From Archaeoglobales archaeon (GTDB taxonomy: Archaea; Halobacteriota; Archaeoglobi; Archaeoglobales; Archaeoglobaceae), in the NCBI GenBank assembly GCA_011605865.1, contig JAAOZI010000012.1:1-64000 (forward strand): DNA of 64,000 bases, in the 5' to 3' direction. Shown here one piece after another: positions 15,390-59,189 of the stretch. The stretch's first letter is position 1; each line of letters begins with the position of its first letter. The notes beneath the pieces were generated by a model. It worked only from the letters and a program-made list of their open reading frames with translations. It did no database searches and had not been told where the DNA came from. Both the position numbers and the translations under genes were made by a program.

Positions 15390-15409
15390 AAAGCAAGTGA
15401 GCCATCCCA

Positions 15410-15548
15410 CATTTAAAGGCGAGGCTTCCGTGTTAAGGCTTTAACGCTTCTTTATCCGGTTCAAAGCCAAGCTCCATGTCTCTGTTAAAAGGGCTACGTT
15501 GCAGCCTCATCTTGGGCAACTGAAGGGCGAGGTTTTCGGTTATAAAAA
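15410..15548 (+). repeat. Dispersed two-ended repeat, copy A (MITE-like)
   Basis: The left part (TTTAAAGGCGAGGCTTCCG then GTTAAGG and CGCTTC) matches 27331-27385 and the minus strand of 55861-55923. The right part (TGAAGGGCGAGGTTTTCGG followed by TTATAAAA) matches the minus strand of 55756-55785. The middle is poorly conserved. No open reading frame. A short non-autonomous element mobilised by an IS200/IS605-type transposase is the working idea. Confidence 0.55.
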
Positions 15549-15574
15549 ACTGAGATTTTTAGAGAACCTTTTAA

Positions 15575-27321: not shown

Positions 27322-27330
27322 TCAAAATTC

Positions 27331-27385
27331 GTTTAAAGGCAAAGCTTCCGGAGTTAAGGGGCTTTGCGCTTCCTTATCTGCCGGT
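27331..27385 (+). repeat. Dispersed repeat, copy B (left part only)
   Basis: TTTAAAGGCAAAGCTTCCGG, then GTTAAGGGGCTTTGCGCTTCC and CCGGTTTGGG, aligns with 15410-15465 and with the minus strand of 55861-55923. GCAAAGC and GCTTTGC can pair into a hairpin. The right part seen in copies A and C is missing here; instead IS200/IS605-type debris follows. Confidence 0.55.
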
Positions 27386-27523
27386 TTGGGTAAAAAGAGC
27401 ATTTTCGCCAAATAAGAAAAGGAAAAGAAATTTTGGGGTCAATGGATATCGATGTTGAAATTTTAGGTCTTTGAGTAAATGAAAATTGGAAGTTGAGGTC
27501 GTTGAATAATTATAACATTGAGT

Positions 27524-27580: not shown

Positions 27581-27634
27581 ATTGCATCTCCCTCTTCAGA
27601 AGGCCATAAACGGCAGGCTCAACAGTTAGGGCTT

Positions 27635-27870
27635 TAGAAAGTTTCAGAGCATCGTAGACTACAAAGCAAGGCTTGCGGGATTGAACGTGAAGTATATTGA
27701 GGCCGATTACACTTCAAGCCTGTGCCCGATATGTGGGGAAAAATTAAGCCCGAATGGGTAGGCAAATGAAATGCTCCGAATGCGGATTGGAGGAAGATAG
27801 GGATGTCATAGCTGTGAAGAATACCAGATGGATGCAGGAGCTTCCGTTCACCCCGAAGGCCCTCCCATGA
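27635..27870 (+). pseudogene. TnpB (IS200/IS605 OrfB) C-terminal fragment, frameshifted
   Basis: Translation gives SIVDYKARLAGLNVKYIEA, SSLCPICGEKLSPNG, then after a +1 change RQMKCSECGLEEDRDVIAVKN, and degrades after that. CPIC and CSEC are the zinc-ribbon cysteines of TnpB, and DRDVIAVKN carries the RuvC-III aspartate. The N-terminal two thirds are absent. This is the relic of an RNA-guided nuclease gene of a transposon. Confidence 0.8.
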
Positions 27871-55048: not shown

Positions 55049-55747
55049 ATGCTAGTGAAAGTTGTAAAGGTGGAAAAACACAGTAAAGATATAGCAACTA
55101 TACACATAAACGCGAATTTCAATGCGCTTCCAGGGCAGTTTGCAATGGTTTACGTCCCAGGATACGAGGAAATACCCCTTAGCTTCTCCTCCGAGAAAAC
55201 TTTCACCGTGAAAGCTGTGGGAGAGACCACTAGGGCATTAGTTGAGATCAAAGCCGGTGAGTGGATCGGGGTCAGAGGTGCATTTGGGAGAGCTTTCCGG
55301 CTCAAAGATAACGCACTTATCATCGCCGGGGGCATAGGAATGGCACCGCTAAGGTTTCTGTACATGAAACTTTTGAATAACAATTACAAGGTGCGAGTGA
55401 TATACGGGGCTAAGAGCGTGGATGAGCTTATCTGGAGAGACTTTGAGAACGCCAGCTATGCGACTGAGGATGGTAGTTTCGGATTTGAGGGGACAGTTGT
55501 AGACTTAGTCGAGCAAGAGGTGCTTGAAAAGTACTCCGCAATATATTGCTGTGGAAAAAGTGAGTTATTGAAAAAGCTTTATAGAATTTTTGAGAAAAGA
55601 TTAAAACCGGATACGATCCAATTTTCATTAGAGAAGTATATTAGATGCGGAATTGGCATTTGCGGATCTTGTGTTCTTAAAAACGGACTGCGAGTCTGCA
55701 AAGATGGCCCAGTTTTCAGTATGAGTGAAGTTCAGTCAGAATTTTAA
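55049..55747 (+). CDS. pyrK: Dihydroorotate dehydrogenase electron-transfer subunit
   Basis: 232 residues. FAD domain (PGQFAMVYVPGYEEIPLSFS), NAD-binding LIIAGGIGMAPLRFL, and a C-terminal [2Fe-2S] site RCGIGICGSCVLKNGLRVCKDGP. PyrK passes electrons from PyrD to NAD. pyrD is not adjacent, so the enzyme would be encoded at two loci. Related sulfhydrogenase or GltB-linked subunits share the fold, but the size and cluster motif fit PyrK best. Confidence 0.85.
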   Translation: MLVKVVKVEKHSKDIATIHINANFNALPGQFAMVYVPGYEEIPLSFSSEKTFTVKAVGETTRALVEIKAGEWIGVRGAFGRAFRLKDNALIIAGGIGMAPLRFLYMKLLNNNYKVRVIYGAKSVDELIWRDFENASYATEDGSFGFEGTVVDLVEQEVLEKYSAIYCCGKSELLKKLYRIFEKRLKPDTIQFSLEKYIRCGIGICGSCVLKNGLRVCKDGPVFSMSEVQSEF

Positions 55748-55755
55748 GTGAGCGA

Positions 55756-55923
55756 CTTTTATAACCGAAAACTTGCCCTTCAGGACTGGATGAGAAAAGC
55801 TTAAATAAATAAACATGTAAATTGCAAATACGGCATGTTGGCCCAAGTAGAGGCCATGCCCTAACGGAAAGAATGGGGGAGAGAGAGAAAGCCCCTTAAC
55901 GCCGGAAGCTTCGCCTTTAAATG
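55756..55923 (-). repeat. Dispersed two-ended repeat, copy C (MITE-like)
   Basis: Inverted relative to copy A. On the minus strand it starts TTTAAAGGCGAAGCTTCCGG with GTTAAGGGGCTTT and ends TGAAGGGCAAGTTTTCGG with TTATAAAA. The two ends match copy A (15410-15548), the interior does not. It lies between pyrK and the SCP2 gene and contains no gene. Confidence 0.55.
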
Positions 55924-55983
55924 CTGGATAGCCCCACAGTTAATGGCCTAAAATTAATTAATTAAAAAATGAGGTGATTAGAA

Positions 55984-56592
55984 ATGGCAGTCGTTTTCCC
56001 TTCCAAAGAGTGGATGAGTGAGTTGTTGAAAAAAGTAAATAGCGACGAGCAATACAAAAAGGTCGCAGCAAATTGGGAGGGGGACTATTTGGTATCTGTG
56101 CAGCTGGATTCAGAAGCTCTAAAGGATTTCCAAAATGTAGAGAAACTAAAGGGGTTTCTTGAAATGCTGAACACAATACCAAAGGAAAAAAGAGCTGAAT
56201 TCAAGGGAAAAGCCGAGGAGAGATTTTTAAATAAGCTTGGACTTGATATAAACGATGATTTCTCCAAACTTGACTTCAACGTGATAGCCAAAAAGGTTGC
56301 TGGTATAAAGCCTGAGGAAGTTAGTGGTGCAGCTCTTTACATGTGGATGGACTTCTGGCATGGACAACTAAGAAACCTACTTGTAGTTACACCAAGCGAG
56401 AGAGCAAATGCAAGATTTAAGCTCTCTGGGCCGTATGCCGTATTCAAACAGCTGGTATCCGGAAAAGCAGATGCTATAACTCTCATAGTGGGAGGCAAGT
56501 TAAAACTCCAAGGTGATCTAGCATACATGATGAGAAACATGGCAGCTGTTAGGAGATTTACGGAATTAATGGCATCTATCCCCATCATTTAA
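55984..56592 (+). CDS. SCP2 sterol-binding-domain protein
   Basis: 202 residues, GAGGTGATT ribosome site 4 nt before the ATG. MAVVFPSKEWMSELLKKVNSDEQYKKVAANWEGDYLV is typical of archaeal and bacterial SCP2-type proteins, and the C-terminal part YAVFKQLVSGKADAITLIVGGKLKLQGDLAYMMRNMAAVRRF is the SCP2 fold with its hydrophobic ligand groove. Binds an unknown lipid or acyl-CoA in the cytoplasm. Flanked by repeat copy C and a TnpB remnant. Confidence 0.82.
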   Translation: MAVVFPSKEWMSELLKKVNSDEQYKKVAANWEGDYLVSVQLDSEALKDFQNVEKLKGFLEMLNTIPKEKRAEFKGKAEERFLNKLGLDINDDFSKLDFNVIAKKVAGIKPEEVSGAALYMWMDFWHGQLRNLLVVTPSERANARFKLSGPYAVFKQLVSGKADAITLIVGGKLKLQGDLAYMMRNMAAVRRFTELMASIPII

Positions 56593-57796: not shown

Positions 57797-57869
57797 TAGC
57801 CCCGGCCGGATTCGAACCGGCGTCGCGGGATCCAGAGTCCCGCAGGATTGACCACTACCCCACGGGGCT
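57797..57869 (-). tRNA. tRNA-Gln (CTG)
   Basis: Minus-strand cloverleaf: acceptor AGCCCCG/CGGGGCT, anticodon loop CT-CTG-GA on stem CGGGA/TCCCG, T-arm GCCGG-TTCGAAT-CCGGC, discriminator A. No intron. Confidence 0.95.
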
Positions 57870-58015
57870 CTCTGTTAACCTGAATCAGGTCCCATCAGCA
57901 GATTTCGTTGCTTTCGAGGCGAACGATAAAGTCAATCTATCGATAGCATAATCCTGTAAATCACAGCTAGCCTTTTCCCTCCTGCGCATAGGGCTGAAGT
58001 TACCCTGGTTTTTAG
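57870..58015 (-). ncRNA. Unassigned GC-rich island, possible structured RNA upstream of tRNA-Gln
   Basis: A 145-bp stretch richer in G/C than the flanks, directly 5' of tRNA-Gln. On the minus strand a TATA-like GTTTAAATAAATA at 58028-58040 would start transcription near 58010. Short inverted pairs occur: AGGG/CCCT near 57999-58014, CTGT/ACAG near 57953-57966, TATCGATA, and ACCTGA/TCAGGT (57878-57890). It does not match RNase P, SRP RNA or a C/D box pair that I can recognise. An ACA triplet lies near its 3' end, as in H/ACA guides, but no convincing long stem was found. Confidence 0.35.
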
Positions 58016-58178
58016 AGGTGATATATTTATTTAAACTTTTCTCATCTCCGAGGTTTTTCAGTTGTAAAGTCTACACTTGAATACTCTCAAGCAAATTAGT
58101 ATCAAATATCAAATACATACGCACATTATCAAAATTCATCCAACATAAATTTTTTAAGCCCAGTAATCAACTTTTTTT

Positions 58179-59189
58179 ATGCTCCTAATCTTCGATCCGC
58201 TATATCTGGTATTAGCTATCCTCGGATACGCAGTAATGTTCCTATTGGCAGGTACAGTAGCACCAAAAGTAGCTGGGAGAGTTGCTGGAGTTTTTTCATT
58301 GTACACATCAATGATACTGCTACTACTGCTGATTGTGGGTGTGTCTGCAGGAATCATCTACGCCATAATAAGCTTTGCAAACATTACAGTAGACATCCTA
58401 GCTCTAGTGATATTCGTAGTTCTCGTGAACCTTATAATCTACTTTATATCCCCCTACATGATCAACATCAGCTATGGAGCAAGGCCTAGCACCGAATTGC
58501 AGGAGATCGTAAATAGAGTTGCATCTAGACTTGGAGTAAAAGCTCCAAAGGCCGTTGTTGTCAGCAGTCCTCCAAATGCGTTCGCATATGGAAACATACT
58601 CACAGGGAAATACGTTGCCGTCTCGGATTCGCTTTTGAACATGCTCTCAAGGGATGAAATTGAAGCCGTTGTCGGGCATGAGATAGGGCATCACAAACAC
58701 AGAGATAATCTATTCATGCTTTTCCTAGGGATTCTACCCTCTATTATCTTTTACTTGGGCTACATGCTCATTCACTCCGCTTCCTCTTCACGCAACGAGA
58801 ATAGGGGAGCTCAGCTTGCGATATTAGGCATCGCAGCTGTGGTCGTATCCTTTGTCATTCAAGTTCTTGTTTTGGCGTTCAGCAGGCTAAGGGAGTACTT
58901 TGCAGATACTGAAGGTGTCAAGGCAACTAGCAAGGACTCCATGCAGAGAAGTCTTGCAAAGATTCACTTCTTCTATCACCGCTATCCCTCCGCAAGTGAG
59001 GTATTGGCTGAGAGCAAACTGAAGGCTCTATTCATTTATGCGCTCGTCAACACGATAGCGAGCCCGTTTGTTACGAGAGCCGACATTGAAAGACTAAAAA
59101 GAGAGAAAGTGTCTCCAATCGAAGAATTTCTCTCTACACATCCACCAATTCCGAAAAGGTTAGCCTTTATAGATAGCTTAAGGTTTTAG
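58179..59189 (+). CDS. htpX: HtpX-like membrane metalloprotease
   Basis: 336 residues. N-terminal membrane helices (about 9-40 and 44-66, 72-95), then PKAVVVSSPPNAFAYG, the zinc site HEIGHHKHRDN (HExxH), two more helices near 185-235 and the third ligand in FSRLREYFADTEGV. It degrades damaged membrane proteins with its active site in the cytoplasm. TTTTTTAAG about 26 nt before the ATG suggests a leaderless message. Confidence 0.93.
   Translation: MLLIFDPLYLVLAILGYAVMFLLAGTVAPKVAGRVAGVFSLYTSMILLLLLIVGVSAGIIYAIISFANITVDILALVIFVVLVNLIIYFISPYMINISYGARPSTELQEIVNRVASRLGVKAPKAVVVSSPPNAFAYGNILTGKYVAVSDSLLNMLSRDEIEAVVGHEIGHHKHRDNLFMLFLGILPSIIFYLGYMLIHSASSSRNENRGAQLAILGIAAVVVSFVIQVLVLAFSRLREYFADTEGVKATSKDSMQRSLAKIHFFYHRYPSASEVLAESKLKALFIYALVNTIASPFVTRADIERLKREKVSPIEEFLSTHPPIPKRLAFIDSLRF

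Follow-up and report, generated by a model that had tools for sequence, protein, structure and literature searches.

A putative TnpB-family transposon left end as the apparent promoter of an archaeal tRNA-Gln(CUG) gene

Results

A distant promoter upstream of tRNA-Gln(CUG)

We analyzed a 64,000-nt window of genomic DNA from an Archaeoglobales archaeon (GCA_011605865.1, contig JAAOZI010000012.1), in which 309 nt separate a tRNA-Gln(CUG) gene from an M48 peptidase gene (Table 1). This was the only tRNA-Gln(CUG) found among the 38 tRNAs of the assembly, the other tRNA-Gln carrying a UUG anticodon; the assembly is ~84% complete, so the single-copy count holds for the assembled part and a second copy is possible. 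The promoters and gene content of the genome appear to suit the Archaeoglobus group. GC content is 46% over the 140 tRNA-proximal nt and 27% over the remainder of the intergenic region. A preliminary description had presented this tRNA-proximal stretch, here called the island, as a GC-rich structured RNA transcribed together with the tRNA. The term GC-rich proved overstated, as 46% compares with 41% across the window and is a coding-like value.

Table 1 Features of the tRNA-Gln(CUG) region, in window coordinates.
Feature	Positions	Strand	Basis or remark
tRNA-Gln, anticodon CUG	57797-57869	-	tRNA calling with ARAGORN and covariance models
Island, predicted ~137-nt 5' leader of pre-tRNA-Gln	57870-58007	-	No DNA homologue, Rfam match or mini-element-interior alignment
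34-codon open frame (MRRREKASCDLQDYAIDRLTLSFASKATKSADGT)	57885-57989	-	Probably meaningless
K-turn-like hairpin with GA/GA beside a 13-layer stem that has one mismatch	57892-57946	-	Function only weakly suggested
Putative left end (LE), with the promoter, of a TnpB-type IS200/IS605 mini-element	58009-58078	-	nhmmer profile matches
BRE and TATA box, GAAAAG-TTTAAATA	58041-58028	-	Highest-scoring intergenic promoter; predicted start near 58007
TTTAC, in the place of the TTTAT/TTAT target motif that precedes LE in other copies	58064-58068	-	Short motif, compared by eye
M48 peptidase (HtpX-like) gene	58179-59189	+	Divergent, head-to-head with tRNA-Gln; order kept in sister G005

Using a promoter profile built from tRNA genes of the same genome, we found that the TATA motif ends ~19-35 nt before the tRNA in most of the 38. 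Unlike these, tRNA-Gln(CUG) showed no promoter-like site within 60 nt with this profile. Its best site lies ~156-157 nt upstream, and this BRE/TATA element is the sole good promoter between the tRNA and the peptidase gene. Because the single CUG tRNA is presumably needed and must be expressed, it would be read from this distant promoter, which implies a leader of ~137 nt. The TATA-like box noted in the preliminary description is thus confirmed as a sequence feature, and the start that it placed near 58010 agrees with our predicted one. Co-transcription of the island with the tRNA is likewise favored at the level of sequence, given that no nearer promoter was found.

The island as a candidate RNA

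The island had no DNA relative in 60 genomes, nor in 55 genomes of the family. Rfam recovered the tRNA only, in line with the earlier remark that no named RNA class is matched, and the covariance-model search advised at that time, run at gathering thresholds and at E values up to 10, gave no match in the island. Its self-complementarity, previously singled out, was ordinary (MFE z = -1.04 for the minus strand and +0.26 for the plus strand). The 34-codon frame and other frames yielded nothing significant in 60 genomes, Pfam or PHROGs, and comparison of the island with phage and plasmid DNA gave no meaningful match. Taken with the failure of the guide-RNA features described below, the absence of homologues in these genomes and the ordinary folding make a structured RNA of a new class unlikely.

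A decayed tRNA or tRNA-like fragment would suit the position of the island beside a tRNA, but neither cmscan at E values up to 10 nor ARAGORN detected one within it, and we consider this origin exceedingly improbable. The preliminary description had set a normal short tRNA leader, or a decayed tRNA or gene, against its own proposal of a new RNA. The leader comes near to our best explanation, although the predicted one is abnormally long, whereas the decayed tRNA falls away at this search sensitivity.

The sole hint of RNA function in the island, and a weak one, is the K-turn-like hairpin, whose score was reached by 1 of 1000 shuffles and by 0.4% of 1826 natural windows; the score was tested post hoc, after the motif had been seen, so its rarity is weak evidence. 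By reading, the bulge comprises 4 nt rather than 3 nt. The stretch also terminates in AACAGAG, which includes an ACA trinucleotide, and probably forms part of the tRNA transcript. Together these features could denote a real small RNA gene, for instance an L7Ae-bound K-turn RNA or an H/ACA-like RNA, that shares the tRNA-Gln promoter and is released by RNase P. In H/ACA RNAs an ACA follows the lower stem, at a distance of about 14-16 nt from the pocket. Here the ACA lies 18 nt from the pocket and no 5' strand pairs to form a lower stem, and an H/ACA guide was rejected. Targets were sought in the rRNAs of congener G007, the genome's own rRNA being incomplete. The best rRNA match of the hairpin around a U spanned only 4+5 bp, a bipartite 23S rRNA target fell when read against actual archaeal 23S, and the 13-nt complementarity of the island to 23S rRNA was equalled or bettered by 21% of natural windows. 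We also rejected a C/D guide, since no C box (RUGAUGA) and D box (CUGA) occurred in order and the only C-like sites, each with 2 mismatches, were wrongly arranged. With PMC4652768 and general knowledge as the structural yardstick, the island resembles archaeal H/ACA guide RNAs in the GA/GA beside the stem and the ACA near the 3' end, but differs in lower stem, spacing and the want of a convincing rRNA target. The island is not kept in congeners either, and we judge a small RNA gene at this position to be very unlikely.

Similarity of the promoter region to a transposon left end

A family search with the promoter included in the query returned many matches, mainly in this genome and in the sister species G006. 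The fetched copies share a repeated LE, TTTATAACCGAAAACCTCGCCCTTCAGGACTGGATGAGAAAAGCTTAAATAAATA, followed in most of them by TnpB zinc-ribbon remnants, and the right end of most carries a GCCTTTAAAGGC hairpin; the corresponding window site reads TTTACAACTGAAAAACCTC-GGAGATGAGAAAAGTTTAAATAAATA. An LE profile made from all copies matched the promoter region at an nhmmer E value of 1.8e-7. Because these copies had been found using the window sequence, we made a new profile from copies retrieved independently, through the TnpB family. This second profile matched the same region at E = 8.9e-5 in 64 kb, where it ranked third after two true relics. The matching segment is short of ~12 nt of the LE hairpin.

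Such a match could also arise if the promoter were LE-like only in being a strong archaeal promoter, with the island as ordinary intergenic or decayed coding DNA that separates the tRNA from a distant promoter. BRE and TATA sequences are constrained, the GC content and open frame of the island look coding, and two LE-like copies sit before ordinary genes. However, the likeness upstream of the promoter core exceeded shuffles for several LE copies and runs on into TTTAYAACYGAAAACCTC. A 23-nt LE core, allowing up to 2 mismatches, had 11 copies in this genome, 4 in G006 and none in the other 8 of 10 congeners, with a reversed-pattern control of 0; these copies sit mostly in IS200/IS605/TnpB mini-elements. 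Given this confinement to 2 of the 10 congeners, the LE core is not a promoter typical of the genus. We regard a likeness between strong promoters alone as unlikely.

TnpB and Y1 transposase sequences both occur in this genome. TnpB zinc-ribbon matches number 32 over 1.27 Mb, and few fall within long open frames. An IS200/IS605 mini-element that looks complete, with LE, TnpB scrap and right end, occupies window positions 55741-56097 (+), directly upstream of and co-oriented with an SCP2-like gene at 55984, and further TnpB/IS200-IS605 relics were observed at 15391-15555 (-), 27329-27386 (-) and 27633-27836 (+). Compared with the mini-element at 55741-56097 and with the copy at tRNA-Ala(CGC) described below, the tRNA-Gln site is alike in its LE, the inward promoter and the orientation towards the next gene, and similar in total length; judged by eye, its short TTTAC would correspond to the TTTAT/C in front of those copies. 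In contrast to them, its LE hairpin is shortened, and the island holds no recognizable TnpB fragment, omega-RNA-like part or right end (GCC-TTTAAA-GGC-type hairpin, TCAC end); a whole-element profile matched the LE part only. No significant alignment was obtained between the interior of the island and either the interiors or the right ends of known mini-elements (against the tRNA-Ala copy, z = 0.76), so the island would consist either of a different or heavily altered element interior or of DNA from another source.

The tRNA-Gln region in relatives

In congeners and across the family, the promoter lies mostly ~20-30 nt upstream of tRNA-Gln. In the sister G005, tRNA-Gln and htpX are 123 nt apart, with a TATA box ~32 nt from the tRNA. 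Because the relatives are short-spaced and the island has no homologue among the genomes searched, tRNA-Gln(CUG) appears to have acquired ~190-210 nt of upstream DNA and to have lost its near promoter. Synteny on the downstream, SCP2 side is not kept in G005, so the comparison supports an insertion from the htpX side only.

Parallel cases at other tRNAs

At tRNA-Ala(CGC) of the same genome (L184, G000:C31:28171-28502), a complete mini-element, from LE to right end, stops ~4 nt before the tRNA (profile E = 2.4e-56). The only good promoter of this tRNA lies within the LE of the element, with none nearer. By reading, removal of the element would bring the TATA-like GAAAGTTTAAAAA on its left to a distance of ~20 nt from the tRNA. 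Measured from the LE motif, the tRNA lies 219 nt away here and 211 nt away at tRNA-Gln(CUG).

In G006, an LE and TnpB relic lies directly before tRNA-Gly(CCC) (L129/L153, G006:C1:6093-6290) and the usual promoter is gone, whereas 8 congeners have a TATA box ~20-25 nt upstream of this tRNA. The G006 flank ends in GTGGCAAAGTTTAAAAC, which resembles the native GTGGCAAACTTTATAA of G007, suggesting that the element inserted at the native TATA; the alignment support is modest and varies by relative, 3 to 278 of 300 shuffles being equally good. At tRNA-Arg(GCG) of our genome (L207, G000:C29:14060-14390), ~50 nt starting with AACTGAAAAACCTC, the sequence that also begins the LE in the window, lie between TATA and tRNA; they are probably a very small vestige of an element of this family.

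The next downstream gene is co-oriented in ~12-13 of 14 LE copies, as if these copies behaved like mobile promoters, within the limits set by ascertainment and small numbers. The co-oriented genes behind LE copies (L162-L176) include Hsp20, CaiB-like, FAD oxidoreductase and SCP2 genes as well as tRNAs.

Discussion

We propose, with a probability of about 0.72, that a TnpB-family mini-element or remnant inserted upstream of tRNA-Gln(CUG) and replaced its promoter, leaving the island as a leftover leader. The proposal draws on the LE match, the lack of a promoter-like site near the tRNA, the short native spacing in relatives and the matching layout at two further tRNAs, all read from sequence. 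A small element of IS200/IS605 type would have landed just upstream of the tRNA and displaced its native, close-set promoter, while its LE would have brought a strong, inward-facing archaeal BRE/TATA promoter. Transcription would then begin near 58007, cross the ~137-nt island and enter the tRNA. RNase P, which has the established activity of removing leaders from pre-tRNA, would presumably cut this one away, and the island itself would be functionless. Counting against the proposal are the partial LE hairpin, the unexplained K-turn-like hairpin, a possible second tRNA-Gln(CUG) in the missing part of the genome and the island interior, which does not align with known mini-elements and so lends no support to a complete element at tRNA-Gln.

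More broadly, it is conceivable, though we offer this tentatively, that a family of IS200/IS605 mini-elements in this archaeal genus repeatedly lands in promoter regions and brings replacement promoters, and that it has taken over the transcription of several single-copy tRNAs and a number of protein genes in this way, leaving long leaders such as the island. Such repeated landing might arise because the TTTAT-like target and the archaeal TATA box are similar in sequence. If the proposed insertion is correct, an apparently single-copy tRNA has a transposon end as its sole recognizable promoter, with two parallels in the same archaeal genus, and an element can survive insertion into the promoter of a vital gene by restoring what it broke. 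It would also follow that an "orphan" GC-rich stretch in front of a tRNA can be the scar of a transposon and not a new RNA.

We found no description of tRNA promoters replaced by a transposon end in the literature searched, the coverage of which was incomplete. Insertion sequences are already known as mobile promoters in prokaryotes, a subject that PMC9208149 discusses with reference to earlier work; in such cases the end of an insertion sequence becomes the promoter of a neighboring gene. The arrangement proposed for tRNA-Gln(CUG) is alike in this respect. It differs in that the gene concerned encodes an archaeal tRNA that is apparently single-copy, and in that the event recurs at other tRNAs.
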